Source: Cordylochernes scorpioides (taxonomy: Eukaryota; Arthropoda; Arachnida; Pseudoscorpiones; Chernetidae). From it: 64,000 nucleotides of DNA. The stretch is taken from contig CP092879.1 in the NCBI GenBank assembly GCA_030710605.1, positions 47,326,576-47,390,575 of the forward strand, given 5' to 3'. The notes below the pieces were generated by a model, which did no database searches, was not told the DNA's origin, and saw nothing but the letters and a program-made list of their open reading frames with translations. Below are positions 6,011 to 59,683 of the stretch, piece after piece (position 1 is the stretch's first letter; each line of letters starts with the position of its first letter). Made by a program: the position numbers and the translations under genes.

Positions 6011-6119
6011 TCAATTTGAGTTCACAATTCGAATAATAATCCCTTGACTCAATATTAAAATACAAACATTAGGTCTTAAGGGAAATTTTCCTTTTTTTAC
6101 ATATCATTCTATTGTATTG

Positions 6120-12200: not shown

Positions 12201-15200
12201 AAGGGGGGTTCTATAGCCATGATTCACTATATGGTATTACTAATATTGAGGTTTATTTTAGGCTCGTTATAAGGAGGGTTGCTATAGCCATGATTCACTA
12301 TATGGTATTACTAATATTGGTGTTTTTTTTAGATTCGTTATAAGGGGGGTTTCTATAGCCCTGGTTCACTATATGGTATTACTAATATTGAGGTTAATTT
12401 TAGGCTCGTTATAAGGAGGGTTGCTATAGCCATGATTCACTATATGGTATTACTAATATTGGTGTTTATTTTAGGTTCGTAATAAGGGGGGTTGCTATAG
12501 CCATGATTCACTATATGGTATTACTAATATTGAGGTTTATTTTAGGTTCGTTATAAGGGGGGTTTCTATAGCCATGATTCATTATATGATAATACTAATA
12601 TTGAGGTTTATTTTAGGTTCTTTATAAGGGGGGTTTCTATAGCCATGATCACTATATGGTATTACTAATATTGGTGTTTATTTTAGGTTCGTAATAAGGG
12701 GGGTTGCTATAGCCATGATTCACTATATGGTATTACTAATATTGAGGTTTATTTTAGGTTCATTATAAGGGGGGTTTCTATAGCCATGATTCACTATATG
12801 GTATTACTAATATTGAGGTTTATTTTAGGTTCGTTATAAGGGGGGTTGCTATAGCCATGATTCACTATATGGTATTACTAATATTGAGGTTTATTTTAGG
12901 CTCGTTATAAGGGGGGTTTCTATAGCCATGATTCACTATATGGTATTACTAATATTGGTGTTTATTTTAAGTTCGTTATAAGGGGGGTTTCTATAGCCAT
13001 GATTCACTATATGGTATTACTAATATTGAGGTTTATTTTAGGTTCGTAATAAGGGGGGTTTCTATAGCCATGATTCACTATATGGTATTACTAATATTGG
13101 TGTTTATTTTAGGTTCGTTATAAGGGGGGTTTCTATAGCCATGGTTCACTATATGGTATTACTAATATTTAGGTTTATTTTAGGTCCGTTATTATGGAGG
13201 TTGCTATAGCCCTGGTTCACTATATGGCATTATTAATATTGGTGTTTATTTTAGGTTCGTTATAAGGGGGGTTGCTATAGCCATGATTCACTATATGGTA
13301 TTACTAATATTGAGGTTTATTTTAGGCTCGTTATAAGGGGGGTTTCTATAGCCATGATTCACTATATGGTATTACTAATATTGGTGTTTATTTTAAGTTC
13401 GTTATAAGGGGGGTTTCTATAGCCATGATTCACTATATGGTATTACTAATATTGAGGTTTATTTTAGGTTCGTAATAAGGGGGGTTTCTATAGCCATGAT
13501 TCACTATATGGTATTACTAATATTGGTGTTTATTTTAGGTTCGTTATAAGGGGGGGTTTCTATAGCCATGGTTCACTATATGGTATTACTAATATTTAGG
13601 TTTATTTTAGGTCCGTTATTATGGAGGTTGCTATAGCCCTGGTTCACTATATGGCATTATTAATATTGGTGTTTATTTTAGGTCCTTTATAAGGGGAGTT
13701 CGCTATAGCCCTGGTTCACTATATGGTATTACAAATATTGAGGTTTATTTTAGGTTCGTTATAAGGGGGGTTTCTATAGCCATGATCCACTATAAGGTAT
13801 TACTAATATTGGTGTTTATTTAAGTTCGTTTTAAGGGGGTTGCTATAGCCATGATTCACTATATGGTATTACTAATATTGGTGTTTATTTTAGGTTCGTT
13901 ATAAGGGGGGTTGCTATAGCCATGATTCACTATATGGTATTACTAATATTGAGGTTTATTTTAGGTTCTTTATAAGGGGGGTTGCTATAGCCATGATTCA
14001 CTATATGGTATTACTAATATTGGTGTATTTTAGGTTCGTTATAAAGGGGTTTCTATAGCCATGAATCACTATATGATATTACTAATATTGGTGTTTATTT
14101 TAGGTTCGTTATAAGGGGGATTCGCTATAGCCATGATTCACTATATGGTATTACTAATATTGAGGTTTATTTTAGGTTCGTTATAAGGGGGTTTCTATAG
14201 CCATGATTCACTATATGGTATTACTAATATTGGTGTATTTTAGGTTCATTATAAGGGGGGTTTCTATAGCCATGATTCACTATATGGTGTAACTAATATT
14301 GAGGTTTATTTTAGGTTTGTTATAAGGGGGGTTGCTATAGCCATGATTCACTATATGGTATTACTAATATAGGTGTATATTTTAGGTTCGTTATAAGGGG
14401 GGTTTCTATAGCCATGATTCACTATATGGTATTACTAATATTGTGGTTTATTTTAGGCTCGTTATACGGAGGGTTGCTATAGCCATGATTCACTATATGG
14501 TATTACTAATATTGGTGTTTATTTTAGGTTCTTTATAAGGGGGGTTTCTATAGCCATGATTTACTATATGGTATTACTAATATTGGTGTTTATTTTAGGT
14601 TCCTTATAAGGGGGGTTTCTATAGCCATGGTTCACTATATGGTATTACTAATATTGGTGTTTATTTTAGGTTCGTTATAAGGGGGGTTGCTATAGCCATG
14701 GTTCACTATATGGTATTGCTAATATTGAGGTTTATTTTAGGCTCGTTATAAGGAGGGTTGCTATAGCCATGATTCACTATATGGTATTACTAATATTGGT
14801 GTTTATTTTAGGTTCGTTATAAGGGGGGTTTCTATAGCAATGATTCACTATATGGTATTACTAATATTGGTGTTTATTTTAGGTTCGTTATAAGGGGGTT
14901 TCTATAGCCATGATTCACTATATGGTATTACTAATATTGAGGTTTATTTTAGGTTCGTTATAAGGGGGGTTGCTATAGCCATGATTCAATATATGGTATT
15001 ACTAATATTGATGTTTATTTTAGGTTCATTATAAGGGGGGTTTCTATAGCCATGATTCACTATATGGTATTACTAATATTGAGGTTTATTTTAGGCTCGT
15101 TATAAGGAGGGTTGCTATAGCCATGATTCACTATATGGTATTACTAATATTGGTGTTTTTTTTAGGTTCGTTATAATGGGGATTTCTATAGCCCTGGTTC

Positions 15201-18200
15201 ACTATATGGTATTATTAATATTGAGGTTAATTTTAGGCTCGTTATAAGGAGGGTTGCTATAGCCATGATTCACTATATGGTATTACTAATATTGGTGTTT
15301 ATTTTAGGTTCGTTATAAGGGGGGTTTCTATAGCCATGATTCATTATATGATAATACTAATATTGAGGTTTATTTTAGGTTCTTTATAAGGGGGGTTTCT
15401 ATAACCATGATCACTATATGGTATTACCAATATTGAGGTTTATTTTAGGTTCATTATAAGGGGGGTTTCTATAGCCATGATTCACTATATGGTATTACTA
15501 ATATTGAGGTTTATTTTAGGTTCGTTATAAGGGGGGTTGCTATAGCCATGATTCACTATATGGTATTACTAATATTGAGGTTTATTTTAGGCTCGTTATA
15601 AGGGGGGTTTCTATAGCCACGATTCACTATATGGTATTACTAATATTGGTGTTTATTTTAAGTTCGTTATAAGGGGGGTTTCTATAGCCATGATTCACTA
15701 TATGGTATTACTAATATTGAGGTTTATTTTAGGTTCGTAATAAGGGGGGTTTCTATAGCCATGATTCACTATATGGTATTACTAATATTGGTGTTTATTT
15801 TAGGTTCGTTATAAGGGGGGTTTCTATAGCCATGGTTCACTATATGGTATTACTAATATTTAGGTTTATTTTAGGTCCGTTATTATGGAGGTTGCTATAG
15901 CCCTGGTTCACTATATGGCATTATTAATATTGGTGTTTATTTTAGGTCCGTTATAAGGGGAGTTCGCTATAGCCCTGGTTCACTATATGGTATTACAAAT
16001 ATTGAAGTTTATTTTAGGTTCGTTATAAGGGGGGTTTCTATAGCCATGATCCACTATAAGGTATTACTAATATTGGTGTTTATTTAAGTTCGTTTTAAGG
16101 GGGGTTGCTATAGCCATAATTCACTATATGGTATTACTAATATTGGTGTTTATTTTAGGTTCGTTATAAGGGGGGTTGCTATAGCCATGATTCACTATAT
16201 GGTATTACTAATATTGAGGTTTATTTTAGGCTCGTTATAAGGGAGGTTTCTATAGCCATGATTCACTATATGGTATTACTAATATTGGTGTTTATTTTAA
16301 GTTCGTTATAAGGGGGGTTTCTATAGCCATGATTCACTATATGGTATTACTAATATTGAGGTTTATTTTAGGTTCGTAATAAGGGGGGGTTTCTATAGCC
16401 ATGATTCACTATATGGTATTACTAATATTGGTGTTTATTTTAGGTTCGTTATAAGGGGGGTTTCTATAGCCATGGTTCACTATATGGTATTACTAATATT
16501 TAGGTTTATTTTAGGTCCGTTATTATGGAGGTTGCTATAGCCCTGGTTCACTATATGGCATTATTAATATTGGTGTTTATTTTAGGTCCTTTATAAGGGG
16601 AGTTCGCTATAGCCCTGGTTCACTATATGGTATTACAAATATTGAGGTTTATTTTAGGTTCGTTATAAGGGGGGTTTCTATAGCCATGATCCACTATAAG
16701 GTATTACTAATATTGGTGTTTATTTATGTTCGTTTTAAGGGGGGTTGCTATAGCCATGATTCACTATATGGTATTACTAATATTGGTGTTTATTTTAGGT
16801 TCGTTATAAGGGGGGTTGCTATAGCCATGATTCACTATATGGTATTACTAATATTGAGGTTTATTTTAGGTTCTTTATAAGGGGGGTTGCTATAGCCATG
16901 ATTCACTATATGGTATTACTAATATTGGTGTATTTTAGGTTCGTTATAAAGGGGTTTCTATAGCCATGATTCACTATATGATATTACTAATATTGGTGTT
17001 TATTTTAGGTTCGTTATAAGGGGGGTTCGCTATAGCCATGATTCACTATATGGTATTACTAATATTGAGGTTTATTTTAGGTTCGTTATAAGGGGGTTTC
17101 TATAGCCATGATTCACTATATGGTATTACTAATATTGGTGTATTTTAGGTTCATTATAAGGGGGGTTTCTATAGCCATGATTCACTATATGGTGTAACTA
17201 ATATTGAGGTTTATTTTAGGTTTGTTATAAGGGGGGGTTTCTATAGCCATGGTTCACTATATGGTATTACTAATATTGGTGTTTATTTTAGGTTCGTTAT
17301 AAGGGGGGTTTCTATAGCCATGGTTCACTATATGGTATTACTAATATTTAGGTTTATTTTAGGTCCGTTATTATGGAGGTTGCTATAGCCCTGGTTCACT
17401 ATATGGCATTATTAATATTGGTGTTTATTTTAGGTCCTTTATAAGGGGAGTTCGCTATAGCCCTGGTTCACTATATGGTATTACAAATATTGAGGTTTAT
17501 TTTAGGTTCGTTATAAGGGGGGTTTCTATAGCCATGATCCACTATAAGGTATTACTAATATTGGTGTTTATTTAAGTTCGTTTTAAGGGGGGTTGCTATA
17601 GCCATGATTCACTATATGGTATTACTAATATTGGTGTTTATTTTAGGTTCGTTATAAGGGGGGTTGCTATAGCCATGATTCACTATATGGTATTACTAAT
17701 ATTGAGGTTTATTTTAGGTTCTTTATAAGGGGGGTTGCTATAGCCATGATTCACTATATGGTATTACTAATATTGGTGTATTTTAGGTTCGTTATAAAGG
17801 GGTTTCTATAGCCATGAATCACTATATGATATTACTAATATTGGTGTTTATTTTAGGTTCGTTATAAGGGGGATTCGCTATAGCCATGATTCACTATATG
17901 GTATTACTAATATTGAGGTTTATTTTAGGTTCGTTATAAGGGGGTTTCTATAGCCATGATTCACTATATGGTATTACTAATATTGGTGTATTTTAGGTTC
18001 ATTATAAGGGGGGTTTCTATAGCCATGATTCACTATATGGTGTAACTAATATTGAGGTTTATTTTAGGTTTGTTATAAGGGGGGTTGCTATAGCCATGAT
18101 TCACTATATGGTATTACTAATATAGGTGTATATTTTAGGTTCGTTATAAGGGGGGTTTCTATAGCCATGATTCACTATATGGTATTACTAATATTGTGGT

Positions 18201-21200
18201 TTATTTTAGGCTCGTTATACGGAGGGTTGCTATAGCCATGATTCACTATATGGTATTACTAATATTGGTGTTTATTTTAGGTTCTTTATAAGGGGGGTTT
18301 CTATAGCCATGATTTACTATATGGTATTACTAATATTGGTGTTTATTTTAGGTTCCTTATAAGGGGGGTTTCTATAGCCATGGTTCACTATATGGTATTA
18401 CTATTATTGGTGTTTATTTTAGGTTCGTTATAAGGGGGGTTGCTATAGCCATGGTTCACTATATGGTATTGCTAATATTGAGGTTTATTTTAGGCTCGTT
18501 ATAAGGAGGGTTGCTATAGCCATGATTCACTATATGGTATTACTAATATTGGTGTTTATTTTAGGTTCGTTATAAGGGGGGTTTCTATAGCAATGATTCA
18601 CTATATGGTATTACTAATATTGGTGTTTATTTTAGGTTCGTTATAAGGGGGGTTGCTATAGCCATGATTCAATATATGGTATTACTAATATTGATGTTTA
18701 TTTTAGGTTCATTATAAGGGGGGTTTCTATAGCCATGATTCACTATATGGTATTACTAATATTGAGGTTTATTTTAGGCTCGTTATAAGGAGGGTTGCTA
18801 TAGCCATGATTCACTATATGGTATTACTAATATTGGTGTTTTTTTTAGGTTCGTTATAATGGGGATTTCTATAGCCCTGGTTCACTATATGGTATTATTA
18901 ATATTGAGGTTAATTTTAGGCTCGTTATAAGGAGGGTTGCTATAGCCATGATTCACTATATGGTATTACTAATATTGGTGTTTATTTTAGGTTCGTTATA
19001 AGGGGGGTTTCTATAGCCATGATTCATTATATGATAATACTAATATTGAGGTTTATTTTAGGTTCTTTATAAGGGGGGTTTCTATAACCATGATCACTAT
19101 ATGGTATTACCAATATTGAGGTTTATTTTAGGTTCATTATAAGGGGGGTTTCTATAGCCATGATTCACTATATGGTATTACTAATATTGAGGTTTATTTT
19201 AGGTTCGTTATAAGGGGGTTGCTATAGCCATGATTCACTATATGGTATTACTAATATTGAGGTTTATTTTAGGCTCGTTATAAGGGGGGTTTCTATAGCC
19301 ACGATTCACTATATGGTATTACTAATATTGGTGTTTATTTTAAGTTCGTTATAAGGGGGGGTTTCTATAGCCATGATTCACTATATGGTATTACTAATAT
19401 TGAGGTTTATTTTAGGTTCGTAATAAGGGGGGTTTCTATAGCCATGATTCACTATATGGTATTACTAATATTGGTGTTTATTTTAGGTTCGTTATAAGGG
19501 GGGTTTCTATAGCCATGGTTCACTATATGGTATTACTAATATTTAGGTTTATTTTAGGTCCGTTATTATGGAGGTTGCTATAGCCCTGGTTCACTATATG
19601 GCATTATTAATATTGGTGTTTATTTTAGGTCCGTTATAAGGGGAGTTCGCTATAGCCCTGGTTCACTATATGGTATTACAAATATTGAAGTTTATTTTAG
19701 GTTCGTTATAAGGGGGGTTTCTATAGCCATGATCCACTATAAGGTATTACTAATATTGGTGTTTATTTAAGTTCGTTTTAAGGGGGGTTGCTATAGCCAT
19801 AATTCACTATATGGTATTACTAATATTGGTGTTTATTTTAGGTTCGTTATAAGGGGGGTTGCTATAGCCATGATTCACTATATGGTATTACTAATATTGA
19901 GGTTTATTTTAGGCTCGTTATAAGGGAGGTTTCTATAGCCATGATTCACTATATGGTATTACTAATATTGGTGTTTATTTTAAGTTCGTTATAAGGGGGG
20001 TTTCTATAGCCATGATTCACTATATGGTATTACTAATATTGAGGTTTATTTTAGGTTCGTAATAAGGGGGGTTTCTATAGCCATGATTCACTATATGGTA
20101 TTACTAATATTGGTGTTTATTTTAGGTTCGTTATAAGGGGGGTTTCTATAGCCATGGTTCACTATATGGTATTACTAATATTTAGGTTTATTTTAGGTCC
20201 GTTATTATGGAGGTTGCTATAGCCCTGGTTCACTATATGGCATTATTAATATTGGTGTTTATTTTAGGTCCTTTATAAGGGGAGTTCGCTATAGCCCTGG
20301 TTCACTATATGGTATTACAAATATTGAGGTTTATTTTAGGTTCGTTATAAGGGGGGTTTCTATAGCCATGATCCACTATAAGGTATTACTAATATTGGTG
20401 TTTATTTATGTTCGTTTTAAGGGGGGGTTGCTATAGCCATGATTCACTATATGGTATTACTAATATTGGTGTTTATTTTAGGTTCGTTATAAGGGGGGTT
20501 GCTATAGCCATGATTCACTATATGGTATTACTAATATTGAGGTTTATTTTAGGTTCTTTATAAGGGGGGTTGCTATAGCCATGATTCACTATATGGTATT
20601 ACTAATATTGGTGTATTTAGGTTCGTTATAAAGGGGTTTCTATAGCCATGATTCACTATATGATATTACTAATATTGGTGTTTATTTTAGGTTCGTTATA
20701 AGGGGGGTTCGCTATAGCCATGATTCACTATATGGTATTACTAATATTGAGGTTTATTTTAGGTTCGTTATAAGGGGGTTTCTATAGCCATGATTCACTA
20801 TATGGTATTACTAATATTGGTGTATTTTAGGTTCATTATAAGGGGGGTTTCTATAGCCATGATTCACTATATGGTGTAACTAATATTGAGGTTTATTTTA
20901 GGTTTGTTATAAGGGGGGTTTCTATAGCCATGATTCACTATATGGTATTACTAATATTGGTGTATTTTAGGTTCGTAAAAAGGGGGGTTTCTATAGCCAT
21001 GATTCACTATATGGTATTACTAATATTGAGGTTTATTTTAGGTTTGTTATAAGGGGGGTTGCTATAGCCATGATTCACTATATGGTATTACTAATATAGG
21101 TGTATATTTTAGGTTCGTTATAAGGGGGGTTTCTATAGCCATGATTCACTATATGGTATTACTAATATTGTGGTTTATTTTAGGCTCGTTATAAGGAGGG

Positions 21201-22650
21201 TTGCTATAGCCATGATTCACTATATGGTATTACTAATATTGGTGTTTATTTTAGGTTCTTTATAAGGGGGGTTTCTATAGCCATGATTTACTATATGGTA
21301 TTACTAATATTGGTGTTTATTTTAGGTTCCTTATAAGGGGGGGTTTCTATAGCCATGGTTCACTATATGGTATTACTAATATTGGTGTTTATTTTAGGTT
21401 CGTTATAAGGGGGGTTGCTATAGCCATGGTTCACTATATGGTATTACTAATATTGAGGTTTATTTTAGGCTCGTTATAAGGAGGGTTGCTATAGCCATGA
21501 TTCACTATATGGTATTACTAATATTGGTGTTTATTTTAGGTTCGTTATAAGGGGGGTTTCTATAGCAATGATTCACTATATGGTATTACTAATATTGGTG
21601 TTTATTTTAGGTTCGTTATAAGGGGGGTTTCTATAGCCATGATTCACTATATGGTATTACTAATATTGAGGTTTATTTTAGGTTCGTTATAAGGGGGGTT
21701 GCTATAGCCATGATTCAATATATGGTATTACTAATATTGATGTTTATTTTAGGTTCATTATAAGGGGGGTTTCTATAGCCATGATTCACTATATGGTATT
21801 ACTAATATTGAGGTTTATTTTAGGCTCGTTATAAGGAGGGTTGCTATAGCCATGATTCACTATATGGTATTACTAATATTGGTGTTTTTTTTAGGTTCGT
21901 TATAAGGGGGATTTCTATAGCCCTGGTTCACTATATGGTATTATTAATATTGAGGTTAATTTTAGGCTCGTTATAAGGAGGGTTGCTATAGCCATGATTC
22001 ACTATATGGTATTACTAATATTGGTGTTTATTTTAGGTTCGTAATAAGGGGGGTTGCTATAGCCATGATTCACTATATGGTATTACTAATATTGAGGTTT
22101 ATTTTAGGTTCGTTATAAGGGGGGTTTCTATAGCCATGATTCATTATATGATAATACTAATATTGAGGTTTATTTTAGGTTCGTTATAAGGGGGGTTTCT
22201 ATAGCCATGATTCACTATATGGTATTACTAATATTGAGGTTTATTTTAGGTTCGTAATAAGGGGGGTTGCTATAGCCATGATTCACTATATGGTATTACT
22301 AATATTGAGGTTTATTTTAGGCTCGTTATAAGGGGGGTTCTATAGCCATGATTCACTATATGGTATTACTAATATTGGTGTTTATTTTAAGTTCGTTATA
22401 AGGGGGGTTTCTATAGCCATGATTCACTATATGGTATTACTAATATTGAGGTTTATTTTAGGTTCGTTATAAGGGGGGTTTCTATAGCCATGATTCACTA
22501 TATGGTATTACTAATATTGAGGTTTATTTTAGGTTTGTTATAAGGGGGGGTTTCTATAGCCATGATTCACTATATGGTATTACTAATATTGAGGTTTATT
22601 TTAAGTTCGTTATAAGGGGGGTTCGCTATAGCCCTGGTTCCCTATATGGT
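6231..22650 (+). repeat. ~70-bp satellite array, about 16.4 kb
   Basis: Uninterrupted tandem array of a 68-72 bp monomer, roughly 230 copies. Conserved blocks in order are TATAGCCATGATTCACTATA, TGGTATTACTAATATTG, a variable (AGG/GTG)TTTATTTTAGG, then TTCGTTATAAGGGGGGTT. Monomers fall into classes (ATTGAGGTTT or ATTGGTGT, GGTTTC or GGTTGC or GGTTCGC, CCATGATTC or CCCTGGTTC). Monomer order repeats over kilobases, for example at offsets of about 1,685 bp (8011 and 9696) and about 3,683 bp (15401 and 19084). Short ORFs in it are by-products of the period. The sequence alone does not show whether it is centromeric, heterochromatic or dispersed. Confidence 0.97.
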
Positions 22651-22918
22651 ATAACTAATTAAAGGTAAAGACTCTACTAGTAAGGTATATAAATAAAGAA
22701 GGATCAGAAGATGAGTTTCTTTTATTGTATGAATGCTACGAGCTTTCGGGCAAAAGCCCTTCGACAGGCAAAAATATAACTATACTAAGAAAGATACCGA
22801 TTTATATATGTTAATCTTAACAGAAGACCGTTTTTTGAGAAAAGTAAATATTGAATCTGCAGTCTGAAACCACGAGACGGCGCGTGGTTTGGGCTATTGA
22901 AATAAACATGTGGGAGGT

Positions 22919-23707
22919 TTAAATGTAGTTTGTGTAGGCTGCGGGGATGTCAATTTTTCTATTTATGCTGTGTAGCTTGGATGAAACTATGGATTCCAGA
23001 ACTAATCTCTGGTGTAGGTTGGAGATATTTTTGTAGTGAATGGTTGGGTTAGCAGTGTCAAAGGAATGGCCAGAAGATGCAATGTGTTGGAAAATAAGGG
23101 AACGGGTATCTCGGCTGGTGATGTTGCGTGTGTGTTCGGACATTCTGATGGCGATGGTTCTACCGGTCTCTACCACATAGGTGGCAGGACACTGTTGGCA
23201 CGAGACCGAGTAGACTGCCCCAGAAGATGTTAGAGGATCAGTGGAGGAGTCGGTTTTTGTGATGGGATGCCTAAGGAGTGAGTGGAGGTTAGGTGTGTTA
23301 GTAAAAAAGGTATGGATGCCAAAGGGTTTGAGGAAACGGGAGAGGTTAACTGAGAGGGGAGAGAATGGGATCACACATGTGGATTTGTAAGTTGCAGGAG
23401 GGTTGAGAGGAACAGGTGAATAGGTGTGTTTTTCTATGAAGGATAGAGGGAAACCTGAAATTGTAAGATGGGAGATGATGCGGTTCTTTTCAATAGTTTT
23501 GAAAATGGGGAGTGAGCAGTGGGTTAATAGGCGGCGGGTGAGGGCTTCAACTATATTGATTTTGTGGGAGGTTGGACAGTGTGACCTATAATGGGTGTAT
23601 CTGGGGGGGTGGTTTTTCTTGTAGTAGACTGTGGTATGGTAGGTGTTTGGGGTGCGTATGACTAGGACGTCCAGGAAAGGAATAACAAGCTCATGTTCTC
23701 TCTCAAG
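22919..23707 (-). pseudogene. Penelope-like RT C-terminus plus GIY-YIG endonuclease, left copy
   Basis: Open minus-strand frame of about 260 codons ending at 22919, with no upstream start because the copy is 5' truncated at the palindrome centre. In order: the RT-distal motif PFLDVLVIR, a basic linker (SHKINIVEALTRR), then the GIY-YIG nuclease with GAVYSVSCQQC (CX2C insertion), TYVVETGRT, EHTRNI, FQHIASSGHSF and RLVLESI. In the right copy the core reads YVGETGRT; here the Gly is Val, which changes a residue near the active-site turn. The nuclease would nick target DNA to prime reverse transcription. Without an RT catalytic domain this copy cannot be autonomous. Confidence 0.8.
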
Positions 23708-23822
23708 AGACTACAATCCCAACATCACATTCACTCTTGAGAGAGAACATGAGCTTGTTATTCCTTTCCTGGACGTCCTAGTCATACGCACCCCAAACAC
23801 CTACCATACCACAGTCTACTAC
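23621..23822. repeat. Near-perfect palindrome at Penelope dimer centre
   Basis: Arms of 89 bp (23621-23709 and 23734-23822) appear perfectly complementary, with a 24-bp spacer (23710-23733). Arm identity this high implies a recent origin or gene conversion. It forms the head-to-head junction of the two Penelope copies. Confidence 0.9.
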
Positions 23823-25221
23823 AGAATAGAAATTCGGCTCAATCACAGACTGAGCCAGGGATGATATAGGCTCAACAGCGGCCCTTGCATCCCAGGCTTT
23901 CGCTGAAATCTAGATCCACACAGCCAGAAGGAATGATGCATTCTCCATGCACCGAGCGGCCATTGGTAGGCCCCTCGCGCCCCGCCATTATGGTCTGGCT
24001 CCATGGGGTTGACCATTCACCCACAGGCGTCACCGAGAGTTCATTGGCAAGGTTGCTGACCGAGCCCCCTCGTTCGGACTTAGAAAGACCCGTCCTACGC
24101 TCCAATAGGACTCCCCCCCCTTTAGCCCTCGTACCCTTATCCAGTACTCCCTGAATCTGCCGTCGAATCAAGGACCTCTGAGGTACGAGGTTTACACGGG
24201 GCACCAATGTGAAGGCGGGAGGGTGGTACTGCTGTGTGCACCCCTTGGTTTTTCAACACCAGGCCTAGCCCTGGTGCAATTTCCGCGCACGGCAAGGACG
24301 CTCCCAATGGCGCACACACAGAGCGAAGACCAAAGAGTTTCAAGACACGTGCGCCTCGCCTCAGACAACCAAGGACAGACGGCCAGCTTACAGCTTCACT
24401 GGACGTCAGTCAGTGGCACCCCTACGGAGGACACACGCAGAGACGCCTCTCCACTCACTCCTCTAGAGTGATTGTAGAGGACGGGAAAAACTTCTACCCC
24501 GTTACACACAGTCTACTACAAGAAAAACCACCCCCCCAGATACACCCATTATAGGTCACACAGTCCAACCTCCCACAAAATCAATATAGTTAAAGCCCTC
24601 ACCCGCCGCCTATTAACCCACTGCTCAGTCCCCATTTTCAAAACTATTGAAAAGAACCGCATCATCTCCCATCTTACAATTTCAGGTTTCCCTCTATCCT
24701 TCATAGAAAAACACACCTATTCACCTGTTCCTCTCAACCCTCCTGCAACTTACAAATCCACATGTGTGATCCGATTCTCTCCCCTCTCAGTTAACCTCTC
24801 CCGTTTCCTCAAACCCTTTGGCATCCGTACCTTTTTTACTAACACACATAACCTTCACTCACTCCTTAGGCATCCCATCACAAAAACCGACTCCTCCACT
24901 GATCCTCTAACATCTTCTGGGGCAGTCTACTCGGTCTCGTGCCAACAGTGTCCTGCCACCTATGTGGGAGAGACCGGTAGAACCATCGCCATCAGAATGT
25001 CCGAACACACACGCAACATCACCAACCGAGATACCCGTTCCCTTATTTTCCAACACATTGCATCTTCTGGCCATTCCTTTGACACTGCTAACCCAACCAT
25101 TCACTACAAAAATATATCCAACCTATACCAGAGATTAGTTCTGGAATCAATAGTTTCATCCAAGCTACACAGCATAAATAGAAAAATTGACATCCCCGCA
25201 GCCTACACAAACTACATTTAA
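23711..25221 (+). pseudogene. Penelope-like RT C-terminus plus GIY-YIG endonuclease, right copy, interrupted
   Basis: Coding starts inside RT at NPNITFTLER (about 23716) and PFLDVLVIR (about 23761), is broken at 23823 by a 683-bp insertion, and resumes in a continuous frame from 24508 (TVYYKKNHPPRYTHYRSHS) to the stop at 25221. The nuclease part carries YSVSCQQC, YVGETGRT, EHTRNI, QHIASSGHSF and LVLESI, all GIY-YIG hallmarks in their usual order. It is followed by a 3' UTR whose end has the CTGTCGA-hairpin-GAAAGC motif at 25373-25400. The 5' part of the element is missing. Confidence 0.8.
23824..24506. mobile_element. Unclassified 683-bp GC-rich insertion with 14-bp direct repeats
   Basis: The insertion is flanked by CACAGTCTACTACA at 23810-23823 and again at 24507-24520, and it splits the Penelope coding frame cleanly. 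Base composition is far more GC-rich than anything around it. There is no poly(A) tail or terminal inverted repeat. On the minus strand TTGGTGCCCCGTGT (about 24210-24194) resembles an LTR-element primer binding site, but there is no LTR pair. The 14-bp duplication suggests retrotransposition primed by a LINE or Penelope enzyme. ORFs inside show no recognisable domain. Confidence 0.6.
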
Positions 25222-25446
25222 ACCTCCCACATGTTTATTTCAATAGCCCAAACCACGCGCCGTCTCGTGGTTTCAGACTGCAGATTCAATATTTACTTTT
25301 CTCAAAAAACGGTCTTCTGTTAAGATTAACATATAAAAATCGGTATCTTTCTTAGTATAGTTATATTTTTGCCTGTCGAAGGGCTTTTGCCCGAAAGCTC
25401 GTAGCATTCATACAATAAAAGAAACTCATCTTCTGATCCTTCTTTA

Positions 25447-27740
25447 GGTATAACTAATATTGGTGTATTTTAGGCTCGTTATAAGGGGGTTTCTATAGCC
25501 ATGATTCACTATATGGTATTACTAATATTGAGGTTTATTTTAGGTTCGTTATAAGGGGGGTTGCTATAGCCATGATTCAATATATGGTATTACTAATATT
25601 GAGGTTTATTTTAGGTTTGTTATAAGGGGGGTTGCTATAGCCATGGCTCACTATATGGTATTACTAATATTGAGGTTTATTTTAGGTTTGTTATAAGGGG
25701 GGTTTCTATAGCCATGATTCACTATATGGTATTACTAATATTGAGGTTTATTTTAGGTTTGTTATAAGGGGGGTTGCTATAGCCATGGCTCACTATATGG
25801 TATCACTAATATTGAGGTTTATTTTAGGTTTGTTATAAGGGGGGTTGCTATAGCCATGGCTCACTATATGGTATTACTAAATATTGAGGTTTATTTTAGG
25901 TTTTTTATAAGGGGGGTTGCTATAGCCATGGCTCACTATATGGTATTACTAATATTGAGGTTTATTTTAGGTTTGTTATTAGGGGGGGTTGCTATAGCCA
26001 TGGCTCACTATATGGTATTACTAATATTGAGGATTATTTTAGGTTTGTTATAAGGGGGGTTGCTATAGCCATGGCTCACTATATGGTATTACTAATATTG
26101 AGGTTTATTTTAGGTTTGTTATAAGGGGGGTTTCTATAGCCATGATTCACTATATGGTATTACTAATATTGAGGTTTATTTTAGGTTTGTTATAAGGGGG
26201 GTTGCTATAGCCATGGCTCACTATATGGTATTACTAATATTGAGGTTTATTTTAGGTTTGTTATAAGGGGGGTTGCTATAGCCATGGCTCACTATATGGT
26301 ATTACTAATATTGAGGTTTATTTTAGTTTTTTTATAAGGGGGGTTGCTATAGCCATGGCTCACTATATGGTATTACTAATATTGGTGTTTATTTTAGGTT
26401 CGTTATAAGGGGGGTTGCTATAGCCATGGCTCACTATATGGTATTACTAATATTGAGGTTTATTTTAGGTTTGTTATAAGGGGGGTTGCTATAGCCATTG
26501 CTCACTATATGGTATTACTAATATTGAGGTTTATTTTAGGTTTGTTATAAGGGGGGTTGCTATAGCCATGGCTCACTATATGGTATTACTAATATTGGTG
26601 TATTTTAGGTTCGTTATAAGGGGGGTTCGCTATAGCCATGATTCACTATATGGTATTACTAATATTGAGGTTTATTTTAGGTTCGTTATAAGGGGGGTTG
26701 CTATAGCCATGGCTCACTATATGGTATTACTACTATTGAGGTTTATTTTAGGTTCTTTATAAGGGGGGTTGCTATAGCCATGGCTCACTATATGGTATTA
26801 CTAATATTGAGGTTTATTTTAGGTTTGTTATAAGGGGGGTTGCTATAGCCATGGTTCACTATATGGTATTACTAATATTGAGGTTTATTTTAGGTTCATT
26901 ATAAGGGGGGTTGCTATAGCCATGGTTCACTATATGGAATTACTAATATTGAGGTTTATTTTAGGTTCGTTATAAGGGGGTTCGCTATAGCCCTGGTTCA
27001 CTATATGGTATTACTAATATTGGTGTTTCTTTTAGGCTCGTTATAAGGCGGGTTGCTATAGCCATGGTTCACTATAGTTATGTAATCACTATAGCCAGGG
27101 TTGACTATATCCATGTATTCCCTGTAGCCATGGTTCACTATATGGTATTACTAATATTGATGTATTTTAGGTTCGTAATAAGGGGGGTTCGCTATAGCCA
27201 TGGTTCACTATAGTCATGTATTCACTATAGCCATGGTTGACTATATCCATGTATTCCCTATAGCCATGGTTCACTATATGTTATTACTAATATTGGTGTA
27301 TTTTAGGTTCGTTATAAGGGGGGTTCGCTATAGCCCTGGTTCACTATATGGTATTACTAATATTGGTGTATTTAGGTTCGTTATAAGGGGGGTTCGCTAT
27401 AGCCATGGTTCACTATAGTCATGTATTCACTATAGCCATGGTTGACTATACCCATGTATTCCCTATAGCCATGGTTCACTATATGGTATTACTAATATTG
27501 GTGTATTTTAGGTTCGTTATAAGGGGGGTTCGCTATAGCCATGGTTCACTATAGTCATGTATTCACTATAGCCATGGTTGACTATATCCATGTATTCCCT
27601 ATAGCCATGGTTCACTATATGGTATTACTAATATTTGTGTATTTTAGGTTCGTTATAAGGGGGGTTCGCTATAGCCATGGTTCACTATAGTCATGTATTC
27701 ACTATAGCCATGGTTGACTATATCCATGTATTCCCTATAT
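25447..27740 (+). repeat. Satellite array, right-hand part, with dimeric edge
   Basis: The same ~70-bp monomer in the same orientation as the main array. Up to about 27050 the monomers are more uniform (GGGGTTGC, CCATGGCTC, GGTTTGTTATAAGG). From 27060 a different spacer appears (AGTCATGTATTCACTATAG, TTGACTATATCCATG, TATTCCCTATAG) alternating with standard monomers, giving a composite unit of about 137 bp at 27414, 27553 and 27688. The array ends at about 27740. Confidence 0.95.
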
Positions 27741-27888
27741 ACTAATGTTTGTATTTTAATAGCAGAAAATTGTTGTGATAGTGTATATAATCATAAGGAA
27801 TTAATACATTTCCATTTTTTAGTTTTCATAAATTATAAGATCCACTATTGTTGCAAAGATAGAAGCTGCCTGGCCGGAATTCATAGTT

Positions 27889-28100
27889 CTTCAAATTAAA
27901 GATACTTCGGACAGTAAATCTTTTTTATTGTCTCGATGTTTCGACAAAGGATTTTTAAATTTTAGATTTTTAAAAATTATTTTTAACGCTTTGCCAAATA
28001 CAAGTTTGATTTTTTTTCACTTTTAACGAGGATAAAAGATTTTTGTTGAAACGTCGAGACAATAAAAAGATTTACTGGCCGAAGTATCTTTAATTTGAAG
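27889..28100. mobile_element. Inverted-repeat element with decayed hammerhead (element A)
   Basis: A 212-bp segment with about 65-bp inverted ends (CTTCAAATTAAAGATACTTC at left and its complement at right). The right arm on the plus strand (28024-28065) reads AACGAGGATAAAAG, ATTTTTGTTGAAACGTCGAG, aligning with the intact hammerhead of the element at 37238-37397 but with CUGACGA decayed to UUAACGA. The left arm keeps only the GAAAC-side (TCGATGTTTCGAC). The centre AACGCTTTGCCAAAT also matches the other element. Confidence 0.7.
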
Positions 28101-28751
28101 ATCGAGTATTGTGTTATACCATACATGTTCCAATGTTGTGAAATTCGAACCTCATCATCAGGGGATCAGTGAACGAGTGGTCTTGCCAGAAACTGAATGC
28201 TACGACTACAGCTAGCGTCACACTGGCCTTATCATCATCACTACAGTTTGTTTACTTCTTCTCACTTATCTATATACTGTAGTTGGTCTCGAGGACCAAG
28301 CCATCACCATCTCCTCAGCGGCGAAGTACGCGATCTACGTATTCTTTGTAGATCGCGAAATACGTGGTGTCGCTGGAGACCCACTGGCGATTATCCACCA
28401 AACTCTGCAGCGCTGGCAGAGGCGCCATGTTCTTTGTATATAGTATGATGCAAATTTTGCCGGAAAGAAATTGATATAAAGAGACAGGAGAGGCGACCCT
28501 TGTTTCTTCAGATAGCATGATGCATAATTATTATTATTATTTTTTTTAATAGTGCAGACTGTGCACTTTGCATGTATTGACAAGATGTCAATAAAATTAT
28601 TTTAATTGCCAATTGTCTATATACTGTAAATGTGTTCTCTATTTTAACTTTATTTTCCTAAATGGATAATAAATGTTATTATCATATAATCATCAACGGC
28701 CTCATGCCTTCATACAAGCTGCGTGTACCTTATCTTATAACAAATCTAAAC
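28101..28751. other. No gene; small hairpin and half-MITE
   Basis: 28329-28357 holds a perfect 10-bp-stem hairpin (CGCGATCTAC...GTAGATCGCG). 28478-28508 resembles the TIR of the 161-bp MITE at 35350-35510 (AAAGAGACAGGAGAGGCGAC). Translations of both strands show no recognisable domain. Confidence 0.4.
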
Positions 28752-30989: not shown

Positions 30990-32640
30990 CGAACGAACCT
31001 AAATACCTCAATATTAGTAATACCATATAGTGAACCAGGGCTATAGCGAATCCCACTTATAACGAACCTAAGATACATCAATATTAGTAATACCATATAG
31101 AGAACCAGGGCTATAGCGAACCCCTTTTTAACGAACCTAAAATAAACACCAATATTAGTAATACCATATAGTGAACCATGGCTATAGCGAACCCCTTTTT
31201 AACGAACCTAAAATAAACACCAATATTAGTAATACCATATAGTGAACCAGGGCTATAGCGAACCCCCCTTATAACGAACCTGAAATGTACACCAATATTA
31301 GTAATACCATATAGTGAACCAGGGCTATAGCGAACTCCCCTTATAACGGACCTAAAATAAACACCAATATTAGTAATACCATATAGTGAACCAGGGCTAT
31401 AGCAACCCTTCTTATAACGGACCTAAAATAAACACCAATATTAGTAATACCATATAGTGAACCAGGGCTATAGCGAACCCCCCTTATAACGGACCTAAAA
31501 TAAACAACAATATTAGTAATACCATATAATTAACCAGGGCTATAGCGAACTCCCCTTATAACGGACCTAAAATAAACACCAATATTAGTAATACCATATA
31601 GTGAACCAGGGCTATAGCGAACCCCCCTTGTAAAGGACCTAAAATAAACACCAATATTAGTAATACCATATAATTAACCAGGGCTATAGCGAACTCCCCT
31701 TATAACGGACCTAAAATAAACACCAATATTATTAATACCATATAGTGAACCAGGGCTATAGCAACCCCCCTTATAACGAACCTAAAATAAACACCAATAT
31801 TAGTAATACCATATAGTGAACCAGGGCTATAGCAACCCTTCTTATAACGGACCTAAAATAAACACCAATATAAGTAATACCATATAATGAACCAGGGCTA
31901 TAGCAACCCCCCTTATAACGAACCTAAAATAAACACCAACATTAGTAATACCATATAGTGAACCAGGGCTATAGCGAACTCCCCTTATAACGGACCTAAA
32001 ATAAACACCAATATTAGTAATACCATATAGTGAACCATGGCTATAGCAACCCTTCTTATAACGGACCTAAAATAAACACCAATATAAGTAATACAATATA
32101 GTGAACCATGGCTATAGCAACCCCCCTTATAACGAACCTATAATACACCAACATTAGTAATACCATATAGTGAACCAGGGCTATAGCGAACTCCCCTTAT
32201 AACGGACCTAAAATAAACACCAATATTAGTAATACCATATAGTGAACCATGGCTATAGCAACCCCCCTTATAACGAACCTATAATACACCAACATTAGTA
32301 ATACCATATAGTGAGAATCATGGCTATAGGGAATACATGGATATAGTCAACCATGGCTATGGTTAATACATGGCTATAGTGAACCATGGCCATAGTGAAC
32401 AGCGCTTAAAACGAACCTAAAATAAACCCCAATATTAGTAATAAAATATAGTCAACCATGGCTATAGTGAATACATGACTATAGGGAACCATGGCTATAG
32501 TGAACCCCACCTTATATCAAACACAAAATAACCCCCATACACAATATAATAATACCATATAGTGAACCATGGCTATGGTGAACACATGGATATAGTTAAC
32601 CATGGCTATAGTGAACCATGGCTATAGTGAATACATGGAT
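30990..32640 (-). repeat. Satellite array in inverted orientation
   Basis: About 23 monomers of the same satellite, now reading TATAGCGAACCCCCCTTATA, ACGAACCTAAAATAAACACC, AATATTAGTAATACCATATA on the plus strand, i.e. inverted relative to 6.2-27.7 kb. From about 32310 it passes into degenerate units (GGATATAGTCAACCATGGC). It resumes at 34944 after an LTR-element insertion. Confidence 0.93.
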
Positions 32641-32840: not shown

Positions 32841-32928
32841 AGAATATCTTATATTTTATCAAGATCAAAGCGAGGTTCCTGCCAGGAATATTTAAAGAAA
32901 AGAAAAAAAAATAATAAATAAATTCGAA

Positions 32929-34401
32929 ATGACATCGAAGAAAGACTTGAAAACTTTACAGAAAGAAGAGGTTGTTACCGGAGCGAAAATAGACATTTCA
33001 ATTAAAGAAATTTTGCCGATTTTCAACCCTGATACAGGCCTTACGTATCAAGAATGGCGAAATCTTTTTGAAAGGATAGTCGCGCTTCAAAGTATTTCAG
33101 AAAAGGATGCTCTATCAATGATCCCGAGCATTTTTAAAGGAAAAGCGTTAGAGATCTACGCCTCGATGTGCCAGGACGTGTTTACGTTGGATGAACTTCA
33201 CCAAGCTATGAATACATTTTTCCCGGTATCGACAAGTGTATTGATGAAGCAATTTTGGACTGAAAAGAAGCTAACTACACCTTCGCATAGACTCATGGGT
33301 AATTTACCACTAGCTGAGAAACCATTTGATGTAGTTGCCCTTGACAGTATTTTAGGATTAGGGGATTATAACAGTACAAAGAATTGTCTTCATGTGATAG
33401 TTGATCATCACTCAAGATACATCTGGGCTTATCCTTCTAAGAGTACGTCTATAGCAACGTACATCAATATAATAAATCAGTTATTAAATGTAGATAAACC
33501 AAAAATTATTGTTACTGATAGGCACCCCTCATTTGTGTCCAAAAGGTTTAACAAATTTATACAAGAAAAGGGCATAAAACACGTAAGGACATCCCCTTCG
33601 CACCCACAATGTAATGGGCTTGTAGAAAGGGCGAATGCGACTATTATCTCAAAACTTAGACTTCACCATCAACAAAATTCCAGAATACCATGGCCCAAAT
33701 TATTACAAAAGGCCTTAGAAGAATATCGGAGTATTCCTCATTCCATAACTAAAATGCCTCCCGTTTATTTGCTTTTTGGCATAACGCCATCATATATCAA
33801 TAATTTAACAAGAGCATATCCACCCATAGAAGAGGCTAGGAGAATTGCAAAAGAAAATACAGAAAAATTACATCTTAAAATGGTAAAAATATATAATGAA
33901 TCCCATAAAACGCCTAATCTAAAAATAGGGGATAAGGTCCTTTATAAGATCCCTTACCAATCAGGTCAAGGTAAGCTTATGCCAGCCTTTTACCCAGAAC
34001 CATACACCATAATTTCCATGCCCTCACCACAAACCATAGAAATAGATAAGCCATGCCAACCCGAAAATAAGCATGCAACAATAGTTAATATTTCTAAAGT
34101 AAAGCTCTGGGATCCGGTAACTGAAGATAATACTGAACCACCATTCCCATTTCAGGAAGAAGAGGATTTGGAAGGATGCTTGGGTGTCGAACCTAACAAG
34201 CAAGCTTCCACCGATAGTCCTCAGGTTTTATTCTCTTCCATTAAAAATTCAGATCACCCCACAGAGCCCCTGGAGAAACTACTGCTGGTTTCGGTAGACA
34301 CCCAAACTGAATCAGAACCAGTTGTATCCTGTGAGGTTTACCAAAGGTGGAAGAGGTCATATAAATTCCAAGAACTGGGGTGCGATTCATTGGGAAAATA
34401 A
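32929..34401 (+). CDS. Gag-integrase fusion protein
   Basis: A 490-aa ORF from ATG 32929. Residues 1-112 look like a retrotransposon gag capsid segment (LTYQEWRNLFERIVALQ, IPSIFKGKALEIYASM). At about residue 113-117 (TEKKLTTPSH) it joins directly to an integrase just after the position of the HHCC zinc domain. The integrase core keeps the full triad: D139 (VVALDS), D197 (VTDRHPSF) and E233 (LVERANAT), with 35 residues between the last two, the canonical DD35E spacing. A C-terminal GDKVLYKIPYQ region follows (about 323 on), then an acidic tail. In a normal gypsy polyprotein, protease, RT and RNase H lie between these parts; here they are removed without breaking the frame. The ORF has survived, so the insertion is young or the protein is used. 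Confidence 0.85.
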   Translation: MTSKKDLKTLQKEEVVTGAKIDISIKEILPIFNPDTGLTYQEWRNLFERIVALQSISEKDALSMIPSIFKGKALEIYASMCQDVFTLDELHQAMNTFFPVSTSVLMKQFWTEKKLTTPSHRLMGNLPLAEKPFDVVALDSILGLGDYNSTKNCLHVIVDHHSRYIWAYPSKSTSIATYINIINQLLNVDKPKIIVTDRHPSFVSKRFNKFIQEKGIKHVRTSPSHPQCNGLVERANATIISKLRLHHQQNSRIPWPKLLQKALEEYRSIPHSITKMPPVYLLFGITPSYINNLTRAYPPIEEARRIAKENTEKLHLKMVKIYNESHKTPNLKIGDKVLYKIPYQSGQGKLMPAFYPEPYTIISMPSPQTIEIDKPCQPENKHATIVNISKVKLWDPVTEDNTEPPFPFQEEEDLEGCLGVEPNKQASTDSPQVLFSSIKNSDHPTEPLEKLLLVSVDTQTESEPVVSCEVYQRWKRSYKFQELGCDSLGK

Positions 34402-37109: not shown

Positions 37110-37237
37110 AGTACAAATTAAGTACAAATCCCCATGGCTAGAACAACTAAAGTAAGTACAACAATTTTTCATAATAAAATATATAATAGAGGACATAATA
37201 ATATTTGAAAAAATAGTACAAATTTGATATTATTTTT

Positions 37238-37397
37238 TTCTGTGAAAAATAGACACTTCGTCGAGTTAGAGTTTTTTTTTCTCAACGTTTCGACAAAAAT
37301 CTTTTGTCTTCGTCAGGAGAAATAAATAAAAATAAAGCATTTGGCAAGGCGTTAAAAATTGTTCTCTAACTGGCCAAAGTGTCTATTTTTCACAGAA
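37238..37397. mobile_element. Inverted-repeat element with hammerhead ribozyme (element B)
   Basis: Ends TTCTGTGAAAAATAGACACTT and its complement (37375-37397) bracket about 160 bp. The minus strand carries GAACAATTTTTAACGCC, TTGCCAAATGC, a T-rich run, then the hammerhead. The same order occurs in the element at 27889-28100. Flank GCCGGCCAGGCAAC at 37404 also matches GCCTGGCCGG at 27868 in the same relative place. Confidence 0.75.
37278..37322 (-). ncRNA. Hammerhead ribozyme
   Basis: On the minus strand: stem I 5' TTTCTC (37322-37317), core CTGACGA (37316-37310, fits CUGANGA), stem II GACAAAA-GAT-TTTTGTC (7 bp, preceded by one unpaired A), core GAAA (37291-37288), minimal stem III C-G, cleavage triplet GTT (37286-37284), stem I 3' GAGAAA (37283-37278). 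Stem I pairs perfectly over 6 bp. All conserved core bases are present. Stem III has almost no loop, as in the minimal hammerheads of Penelope-like elements that may act as dimers. Confidence 0.7.
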
Positions 37398-37440
37398 ATA
37401 TGAATGCCGGCCAGGCAACCTCCATCTTCAGAATAAATTT

Positions 37441-37586
37441 GATATTGTACTGGGATAAGGTGCTTAAATTATGAAAAATAAAAAGGCATCTCCTTATCAT
37501 GCAACTGAAAGTTGCTGATGAATCAGCAATGACATCAGAAACTTTCAGTTGCACGATAAGGAGATGCCTTTTTCTTTTTCATAATA
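37441..37586. repeat. Palindromic repeat
   Basis: Inverted arms AAGGCATCTCCTTATCATGC..AACTGAAAGTT and AACTTTCAGTTGC..ACGATAAGGAGATGCCTT around about 25 bp. A half copy lies at 30171-30250. Probably a small foldback element. Confidence 0.75.
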
Positions 37587-37587
37587 T

Positions 37588-37768
37588 TATTTATAATACA
37601 ATATAATGTGGCTTATAATTATAGAACGACATTAGAAAATTATCCCGCATGTGTTTCTTTTGAACGAAAAATTGATATTTATTTTGAAGAGAAATAACGA
37701 TTATTTCTAACCTTGGGGATGAAGTATGAAAGGATGAATTGTGAAGAGTAATGTTAAATGGAAATATA
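37588..37768 (+). repeat. Direct repeat, copy 1
   Basis: About 180 bp (TAATACAATATAAT.. GAACGAAAAAT.. GATGAAGTATGAAAG.. TGAATTGTGAAGAGTAATG) repeated at 38630-38812, about 1,045 bp away. A 132-codon minus ORF here (37591-37989) is very AT-rich and matches nothing I recognise. Confidence 0.7.
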
Positions 37769-44993: not shown

Positions 44994-45174
44994 CAGAGGT
45001 CGGCAAACTGCAGATCGCGAGCCACATGCGGCTCTTTGGATGTAAGCTGTTGCTCTTTATATAGTTCCATACGTTAATATGTTGGCAAAAAAAATATTAA
45101 GGCTCCTTAAAAACTTTGAAAATTTTTAAATTGTAATTTTCGAATCTTCCGACTCAAAGGTTTGCTAACCCGTG
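44994..45174 (-). mobile_element. hAT MITE, minus type
   Basis: CAGAGGTCGGCAAACTGC...GCTAACCCGTG, with about 25 bp deleted around the TTATTTATGCGAGTAC block. Confidence 0.8.
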
Positions 45175-58442: not shown

Positions 58443-59349
58443 TAACTAGTTCTCCCCCCATCCTTTCCTCCTCCATTTCTTCCTTTATGAAAAAAAGATG
58501 AACGTTGTTCATTGAAATTTCTCTTACCTTCTCCGCATCCCCCCACCAAGGTCGCCTTGACGTACCTTCCGTGAGGTGGACTAACAGAACAAAACAAAGG
58601 ACCGACACGACAACGTGGTATCCATCAAATATATCAACGGAATATAAATAACTTAAACACACAATATAAATACTTACAATAAACTTTAATATAAGTGTAA
58701 AGATAAAATTTTTAAAACTTGATGTTAATTACTTTCCTTTTTGTTTTATTACATCATGGGATCCCCACTGTCAATTACACCACAGGAATCCCGCGTTTTT
58801 AAAAAAGCAATTTTCTCTTTTATTACCGGAATAATTAATAATATACAAGGTCGAAACTATGACAGCGACAATAATTCTTGACTTACCTCTATATAGTGTG
58901 ATAATTTCATCCAAATAGGTCAAGTATTGTAGAAAGGCATGTTGAACAAACAAACAAACTTTTCATCTTTAAATTTTTGTAGTAAAGATATTTCAAAAAT
59001 TTATGATAATAATAATACCAACCAGACTCTCTCTCTCTGAGGAAGACCTTGAACGAAAAAAAAAAAAAACAGTAACATCCTGGCTTCCAGCCAAGACATT
59101 CCACACTTTACCATTTAGTTATCATCACAGAGAAAAAATTCAATGACCTCTGAACAAATTCCTGGAGGTGTTTAGTCGGATAATTATTTAAAATTAATGA
59201 TAAAACATGCAATAGATAGTTCAGACTTAATTTGCATAATACCGATCGCAAATATTAGCTTACATATGTACCAAAAATGGCACCTCTCACTTTAAATAAG
59301 CATTAAAACAATATATAATGGTTTTTACCCCAGTAAAAAACTTAAAGGT
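58443..59349. other. No supported gene
   Basis: AT-rich DNA; ORFs on both strands are short and overlap one another. A short TC-repeat (58260-58315 and 59028-59038) is the only structure seen. Confidence 0.4.
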
Positions 59350-59565
59350 GATGGTAAAGAATGAATTACAACACCAGTTTTGGCAAATTAAGGCAAAACC
59401 CAACCTGTATACTAAAGTTTCGGGCTATGGCCTTCATCAGTACAGGGTGGCTTCGATTTCATAACATTCTATGAGAGGAATTACTGTTGAAGGCCAAACC
59501 ATGTTATACAGGTAAAATTTTATATGAATTTTCCAAAGCTGGTGTTGTGGCTCATTCTTCACTAC
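59350..59565. mobile_element. Inverted-repeat element with intact hammerhead (element C)
   Basis: Outer arms (ACAACACCAGTTTTGG at 59369, CCAAAGCTGGTGTTGT at 59532) are about 36 of 40 bp complementary and enclose about 216 bp. The left half holds an intact hammerhead on the minus strand. The right half holds a decayed mirror copy on the plus strand (CTGTTGAAGGCC, TTATACAGG; 59484-59512), in which the GAAA box is lost. So the whole unit is a head-to-head pair. Confidence 0.75.
59397..59450 (-). ncRNA. Hammerhead ribozyme, all core bases present
   Basis: On the minus strand: stem I 5' CCACCCTGTA (59450-59441), core CTGATGA (59440-59434), stem II GGC-CATA-GCC closed over an A-C pair, core GAAA (59421-59418), stem III C-(TTTA)-G, cleavage triplet GTA (59412-59410), stem I 3' TACAGGTTGGG (59409-59399). 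CCTGTA pairs TACAGG over 6 bp, then after one mismatch ACC pairs GGT-side bases. Core CUGAUGA and GAAA, the A-U pair before the cleavage site and the NUH triplet are all correct. Cleavage is predicted after 59410. A one-pair stem III is typical of hammerheads from Penelope-like elements. Confidence 0.8.
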
Positions 59566-59683
59566 TAATTCTAAGTTTATTTTGTGTACTGGGGTGATAA
59601 GTAATTGTTTTAATGTATATTTATATATAGATGTGTCTATTTTAGTAAATAAATACCATCCTTCCGGAACTTTATGTTACATT

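Follow-up and report, generated by a model that had tools for sequence, protein, structure and literature searches.

Hammerhead-bearing foldbacks in a pseudoscorpion genome are best read as double-ended insertions of Penelope-like elements

What are the short foldback sequences built around hammerhead ribozymes (HHRs) in the genome of the pseudoscorpion Cordylochernes scorpioides, and do they constitute an element family of their own? The stretch of DNA analyzed here (hereafter the window) comprises 64,000 nt of assembly GCA_030710605.1, contig CP092879.1, positions 47,326,576–47,390,575 of the forward strand, and holds three such loci (loci 1, 2, and 3). An earlier note, made from the letters of the window, had described them as a possible undescribed non-autonomous family, either head-to-head dimers of a Penelope 3' end or retrozyme-like units. 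Our best reading is that the foldbacks are double-ended insertions of the ribozyme-bearing end of a Penelope-like element (PLE), with no separate element family involved. We consider it probable (about 0.82) that each foldback represents one insertion event, in which two cDNAs copied from the two ends of a break were joined in the center.

All three loci consist of two pseudo-LTR (pLTR) units in inverted, head-to-head order, with their 3' ends pointing outward (Table 1). The stretches of loci 1 and 3, compared with their own reverse complements, had inverted-arm scores of 153 and 114, while the maxima in 200 shuffles were 44 and 53, respectively. The top self-complementarity score in the locus 2 stretch (172; shuffle maximum 56) belonged to a neighboring hairpin at 37465–37589, and the arms of locus 2 were established by repeat-unit alignment instead. 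That hairpin, which adjoins locus 2, is MITE-like, 125 bp long, and near-perfect. The shared plan of inverted arms proposed by the earlier note was therefore supported by shuffles and alignment, but the extents of about 160–216 bp were not, given that locus 3 is about twice as long and that every locus carries, at a single end, an additional tail. Likewise, a hammerhead in one arm was confirmed for loci 2 and 3, which have intact cores, but not for locus 1, in which the core is broken. The mirror arms of loci 2 and 3 begin downstream of the HHR or inside it. The center and flank that loci 1 and 2 were said to have in common are real: the center, AACGC-TTTGCCAAAT, is the 5' head of the pLTR, and the flank is the tail.

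Table 1. Positions of the foldback pairs and their parts in the window.
Feature	Positions	Strand	Basis or detail
Locus 1, head-to-head pLTR pair, family 1	27853..28101	both	alignment to repeat unit
Locus 1, short target repeat TATTGT	27846–27851 and 28107–28112		
Locus 1, near-complete unit, tailless	27975..28101	+	unit positions 14–137, 89% identity
Locus 1, inverted unit, inner-truncated, tailed	27855..27948	-	unit positions 78–170, 95%
Locus 1, tail	about 27853–27888	-	on inverted unit
Locus 1, hammerhead remnant, TTAACGA replacing CTGACGA; predicted cleavage after 28055	28023..28055	+	sequence versus family alignment
Locus 2, head-to-head pLTR pair, family 2	37237..37435	both	alignment to repeat unit
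Locus 2, target duplication AAATTTGATATT	37220–37231 and 37435–37446
Locus 2, complete unit, tailless	37237..37365	-	unit positions 16–146, 96%
Locus 2, hammerhead, intact core (CTGACGA...GAAAC-GTT)	37284..37316	-	HHR scan and sequence
Locus 2, short inner-truncated unit, tailed, without HHR	37364..37435	+	unit positions 112–183, 94%
Locus 2, tail	about 37398–37435	+	on short unit
Locus 3, head-to-head pLTR pair, family 3 (older)	59266..59676	both
Locus 3, weak 6-bp target repeat TTACAT	59260–59265 and 59677–59682
Locus 3, HHR-bearing unit, tailless	59266..59483	-	unit positions 16–237, 87%
Locus 3, hammerhead, intact core (CTGATGA...GAAAC); predicted cleavage after TA	59410..59440	-	direct reading and family alignment
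Locus 3, inner-truncated unit, tailed, decayed HHR remnant	59496..59676	+	unit positions 80–271, 74%; match extends to 59684
Locus 3, tail	about 59651–59676	+	on + unit
Fourth pair, two PLE 3' parts with GIY-YIG-type reading frames, head-to-head	22660..25446
Fourth pair, 34-bp tail	22660–22693		left unit only
Fourth pair, exact 12-bp target duplication GGTATAACTAAT	22648–22659 and 25447–25458

The fourth pair of the window consists of longer PLE 3' parts. Pfam detected GIY-YIG in its right unit (E = 0.0008, below the gathering score) and found no GIY-YIG match in its left unit. An unrelated insert of ~680 bp (about 23828–24506), with CAGTCTACTACA on both sides, splits the right PLE, and the whole pair is located within a 71-bp tandem satellite that occupies much of 6116–22600, 25450–26900, and 31070–32290, with an inverted block near 31–32 kb. 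Each of loci 1, 2, and 3 has a second copy, 96–99% identical, about 365–416 kb away on the opposite strand (G000 C17:47750897–47770451), which points to an inverted segmental duplication as the probable origin of these second copies. Other features of the window were reading frames for an integrase core (rve; 32896–34398, +), a Tc1-like transposase (48163–49197, -), and a copia-type gag with Pol_BBD (62514–63830, +), and a short repeat resembling mir-9209 in Rfam, below the gathering score, present three times (44990–45061, 46570–46641, and 56510–56581).

The genome searched for further copies was the window's own (2.62 Gb, 24 contigs). Queries from loci 1, 2, and 3 returned 2,105, 1,014, and 5,653 first-look candidates, respectively, 40 of which were scored for each query; from families 1 and 2 we fetched another 39 copies apiece and aligned 35 and 40 rows, respectively. 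An exact search of the genome for the 31-base HHR string that typifies families 1 and 2 gave 5,652 occurrences (2,812 + 2,840), and that for its reversed control gave none. From 5' to 3', the repeat unit comprises a head (AATTATTTTTAACGCTTTGCCAAATG in family 1), the HHR, about 45–50 nt more, and a tail of up to 39 nt, and alignments of all three families placed the HHR between the pLTR head and the tail. An ATG within the tail starts a frame, ATGAATGCCGGCCAGGCAGCC, as read by eye, and some copies continue into further sequence upstream of the head. Family 3 copies were about 80% alike and rearranged, with a self-complementary head.

The link to PLEs comes from longer copies. At L100, reverse transcriptase and GIY-YIG pieces lie beside the same pLTR (Pfam RVT_1, E = 0.006; GIY-YIG, E = 0.0005), both below gathering score and decayed, and at L095 the same pLTR adjoins a GIY-YIG-like ORF. 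A query composed of the 3' part of the L095 ORF, the spacer, and the pLTR returned 4,523 first-look candidates, 40 of which were scored. The features of EN+ PLEs were thus found together, namely RT/GIY-YIG joined to the pLTR, inverted pairs, an optional tail, target-site duplications (TSDs), and the position of the HHR, which is where PLE hammerheads have been described. The proposal of head-to-head dimers of a Penelope 3' end accordingly holds, given the same pLTR, tail, and TSD, and PLE RT/GIY-YIG sequence next to that pLTR in the genome.

Head-to-head order was nearly universal. An inverted partner in this order within 260 bp was present at 40/40 family 1 loci and 34/40 family 2 loci (74/80 together); the partner search covered head-to-head order only, and no tail-to-tail unit was seen among the other matches listed. 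We also drew a sample independent of the foldback by taking, in contig order, the 20 earliest occurrences of the HHR string on contig C1. Thirteen of these were solo head-to-head pairs, three lay immediately downstream of PLE 3' sequence (the region separating ORF from pLTR), and four were partnerless within the ~270 bp fetched per side. The earlier note had named copies that are always parts of longer Penelope elements as an outcome that would speak against a family, and this outcome did not hold. Among 100 listed places, all ten opposite-strand HHR neighbors within 5 kb were head-to-head, and there was a single same-strand neighbor within this distance. L095 has two direct pLTRs 7 kb apart. 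In L028, a normal pair is accompanied at positions 89–359 by a tandem array in which the family 1 3' end and its tail are repeated four times, at ~67 bp each.

Target duplications frame many of the pairs as wholes. A TSD flank score of at least 8 was reached by 54 of 74 pairs of families 1 and 2 (near-duplicates included), whereas 50 rounds of a mismatched-flank control averaged 4.1 such pairs and never exceeded 10, and 20 of the 74 pairs had no clear TSD; the other outcome named beforehand, random ends with no target duplication, is at odds with this result. Among the 54 clear cases, the TSD was 12 bp long in 24 and 8–17 bp in the others, and TSDs were AT-rich by eye.

The outer ends of the pairs are defined, and the inner ends vary. 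Most pairs combine a near-complete unit, which reaches a fixed 5' end, with a partner shortened at the inner end; the shortened unit lacks the head side and as a rule keeps its 3' end. In the query-selected sets, the right unit mostly starts near unit position 14 or 16 and the partner's inner end is scattered, whereas in the HHR-string sample both units can be shortened. Inner ends of the second unit spread over positions 14–108 in family 1 and 13–120 in family 2, of about 180 positions, and many inner junctions have a few filler bases. We counted 34 distinct inner junctions in 34 pairs of family 1 and 27 in 31 pairs of family 2 (61 in 65). Given that inner junctions are scattered, the foldback therefore seems to be made anew at each insertion and not inherited as a unit. 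One junction, common to locus 2, L058, L059, and L064, which have different target duplications, departs from the pattern of one junction per copy. It falls at a short microhomology, at the pile-up at family 2 position 112, and the right units of these four loci were no more alike than random, as 1,711 of 2,000 random fours were equally or more alike. Another inner junction was common to L076 and L083.

The most regular property of the pairs concerns the 30–40 bp 3' tail, which is optional in units. Out of 88 pairs, 85 had exactly one tail, none had two, and three had none, and in each of these three one unit was broken before the normal 3' end. Near-duplicates, judged by shared flanks, had been dropped from this tally (six in family 1, three in family 2), and tail status was unselected because the queries for families 1 and 2 both excluded the tail. 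The tail was on the left unit in 20, the right unit in 12, and neither unit in 2 of 34 family 1 pairs, and on the left in 24 and the right in 7 of 31 family 2 pairs, with neither unit tailed in none; no pair of either family had it on both. Of ten pairs in which one or both units include ORF 3' sequence, nine had one tail and one had none, these ten having been chosen from 40 scored candidates as those with both units visible in the match table. In the HHR-string sample, 13/13 pairs had one tail, one pair being internally shortened. The tailed unit was the truncated one in 44/63 pairs of the query-selected sets (p 0.002), and in 6/11 by our own reading of the HHR-string sample, where two further pairs were equal; we suspect that the locus 2 query biased the former, and base no conclusion on this excess.

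The rule is less clear in the old family 3. Read by eye, one tail was present in L103, L110, L117, L120, L130, and the window copy, and no tail in L109, L119, L121, and L127, while in L118 both outward units had tail sequence, and one of them continues past the tail; other family 3 copies were single units or too rearranged for classing. Tail sequence was also present at both ends of the PLE-bearing stretch of L100; the pLTRs of this stretch are of different ages and may derive from separate insertions.

The two units of a pair also resemble each other in their private variants. Such variants were common to both units in 44/166 cases (0.265) in family 1 and 16/93 (0.172) in family 2, versus 0.087 and 0.086, respectively, when units were dealt among pairs, and 0 of 1,000 shuffles reached the observed sharing in either family.

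From these observations and the published PAc protein (Poseidon of Anolis carolinensis) we propose a sequence of enzyme steps. The PLE endonuclease would make a staggered double cut, most often of 12 bp, and each 3' DNA end would prime a separate reverse transcription. One would start at an inner site, yielding no tail, and the other at an outer site, yielding the tail, on RNA from one source, and the two cDNAs would be joined centrally via microhomology or filler. Solo pairs would result when copying begins at the 5' pLTR of the mRNA, which is possible because the first ~160 nt of the mRNA already include the head, the HHR, and both start sites. It is also conceivable, at somewhat less than even odds in our judgment, that PLE integration is obligatorily two-ended and asymmetric, with a two-enzyme complex on one RNA whose reverse transcriptases are forced to different start sites, so that every insertion would have one tailed and one tailless end.

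Where does this leave the hammerhead? By chance, the HHR scan of the window was expected to yield 0.1 perfect core-plus-helix matches on each strand. It yielded two, and both are on the minus strand; one is that of locus 2, and the other, at 37388–37431, is taken for chance. The core of locus 3 was missed by the helix threshold of the scan and identified by direct reading. A type I core, CUGANGA - helix II - GAAA - UH with helix I, was found in loci 2 and 3 and in the majority sequences of all three families, whereas locus 1 has no intact HHR, having two core changes (TTAACGA versus CTGACGA in relatives) and an opposite arm without that half. Helix III is nearly absent, ACGU in families 1 and 2 and ACCAUGGU in family 3; both are self-complementary, which would fit dimer-type cleavage as reported for PLE hammerhead motifs. 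Cleavage is predicted after GTC, GTT, or GTA in the three families. In families 1 and 2, by our own reading, the CTGACGA box is followed by one additional purine ahead of helix II. An HHR-like string, CTGTGGA...GAAAGC, was also noted at 55441–55466 (+), and similar ones lie beside PLE reading frames at 22744 and 25373.

The core changed at rates of 0.048 versus 0.055 for the rest of the unit in family 1 and 0.017 versus 0.043 in family 2. It was retained in 22/34 and 31/37 right-hand units of families 1 and 2, and in 17/24 and 8/10 left-hand units long enough to hold it. Rfam detected no hammerhead family in the window (gathering score; E up to 5) or in nine copies (E up to 5), where its matches were to hairpin-like and other models, all below gathering scores, and in predicted folds of loci 1 and 3 the HHR is enclosed within the long duplex. 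HHR cleavage was considered as the cause of truncation and found no support: the inner ends are scattered, and the sole pile-up is at position 112, with cleavage sites at 91 and 97. An active role of the HHR in these copies is disfavored by the lack of an Rfam match, the extra purine, the absence of a pile-up at the cleavage site, and the burial of the HHR. While the HHR might trim or separate PLE transcripts, our data give no support to a role in shaping the foldbacks.

How do other explanations compare? A self-propagating non-autonomous foldback, in which the palindrome is transcribed, cleaved by its HHR, perhaps circularized, and reinserted by PLE enzymes, would account for ORF-less copies being numerous and having TSDs and defined outer ends, for the HHR core kept in most units long enough for it, and for the inner junction common to four unlinked loci. 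We nevertheless regard it as improbable, given that the independent pairs have almost as many inner junctions as members and the four junction-sharers are not a related group, that truncation points vary and the tail can be on either side, so that no fixed foldback is inherited, that truncation points show no cluster at the HHR cleavage sites, that direct tandem units are rare (the single same-strand HHR neighbor within 5 kb among 100 places, L095, and the L028 array), and that the HHR of two window loci would be buried. The same scatter of junctions, the head-to-head instead of direct tandem order, and the inverted pLTRs already described for PLEs (PMC3846280) tell against an undescribed non-autonomous family or retrozyme-like unit as suggested before. 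A MITE or foldback DNA transposon with an accidental hammerhead-like string would explain little beyond the long inverted arms; the outer ends are unequal, with a tail on one side, TSD lengths and inner truncation points vary, and the same unit is joined to PLE sequence, which makes this the least probable of the alternatives.

Snap-back self-priming, as proposed for Adineta vaga Penelope (PMC3846280), in which cDNA or antisense RNA folds at a palindromic head and copies itself, is about as improbable as the self-propagating foldback. It would produce the head-to-head orientation, and the family 3 head is indeed self-complementary, but it predicts matching 3' ends and an intact inner palindrome, and here the second unit shows the reverse, lacking the head side and having a canonical 3' end, and 3' ends differ by the tail in 85/88 pairs. 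The tail asymmetry, together with the private variants common to a pair, thus argues against snap-back and fits reverse transcription from both DNA ends. Those variants also oppose two unrelated insertions, with a later PLE inserted into the head of an earlier one; heads are AT-rich and AT-rich sites are favored by PLEs according to PMC11167929, but TSDs enclose the whole pair in many cases and the tail rule would be expected only at chance level, leaving this explanation very unlikely. We therefore retain copying from both ends of one break, within a single insertion, as the reading of the foldbacks.

Inverted pLTRs, the optional tail, TSDs, and PLE hammerheads have all been described previously. 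According to PMC3846280, Pen2, Pen2a, and Pen3a of Adineta vaga are EN+ PLEs with inverted pLTRs and an optional tail, and self-priming on an antisense template was proposed in that paper; compared with these elements as described there, C. scorpioides has thousands of HHR copies and many ORF-less pairs, and the tail is on exactly one unit nearly without exception. According to PMC11167929, the purified PAc protein cleaves and extends both strands, and reverse transcription starts at two adjacent internal sites bounding the tail. The units described here are like PAc in having the HHR at the pLTR–ORF junction and the tail between two reverse transcription start sites, but PAc is described as tandem repeats, in contrast to inverted pairs with one start of each kind; a coupling of the two start sites per insertion is not among the results reported in the available text of that paper, which states that the mechanism of PLE mobility is still largely open.

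Metazoan non-LTR retrozymes, as outlined in PMC7229834 and PMC7761336, are ORF-less repeats of 170–400 nt with type I HHRs, thought to depend on PLE enzymes. The foldbacks share with them short ORF-less repeats and type I HHRs; however, retrozymes have direct tandem order, canonical HHRs, and circular RNAs, whereas our case consists of inverted pairs with minimal HHRs, and direct tandem HHR copies, which characterize retrozymes, were represented by the one same-strand neighbor within 5 kb at 100 listed places. In being of type I with helix III nearly absent, the HHRs resemble the minimal ones reported for PLEs and Terminons (Cervera and de la Pena, 2014; Lunse et al., 2017), from which families 1 and 2 differ by the extra purine before helix II.

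The near-absolute count of one tail per pair may be new; our literature search, whose coverage of the field was incomplete, found no count of tails per inverted pair, and we do not claim that none has been published. Inverted repeats of PLEs with a one-sided tail were earlier explained by self-priming or left open. The pairs of C. scorpioides add a numerical constraint, namely one start of each kind per insertion, an inner-truncated second unit, and variants common to the pair, and this constraint favors copying from both ends of the break. More generally, finding a short foldback with a hammerhead in an animal genome does not by itself imply a new element family.
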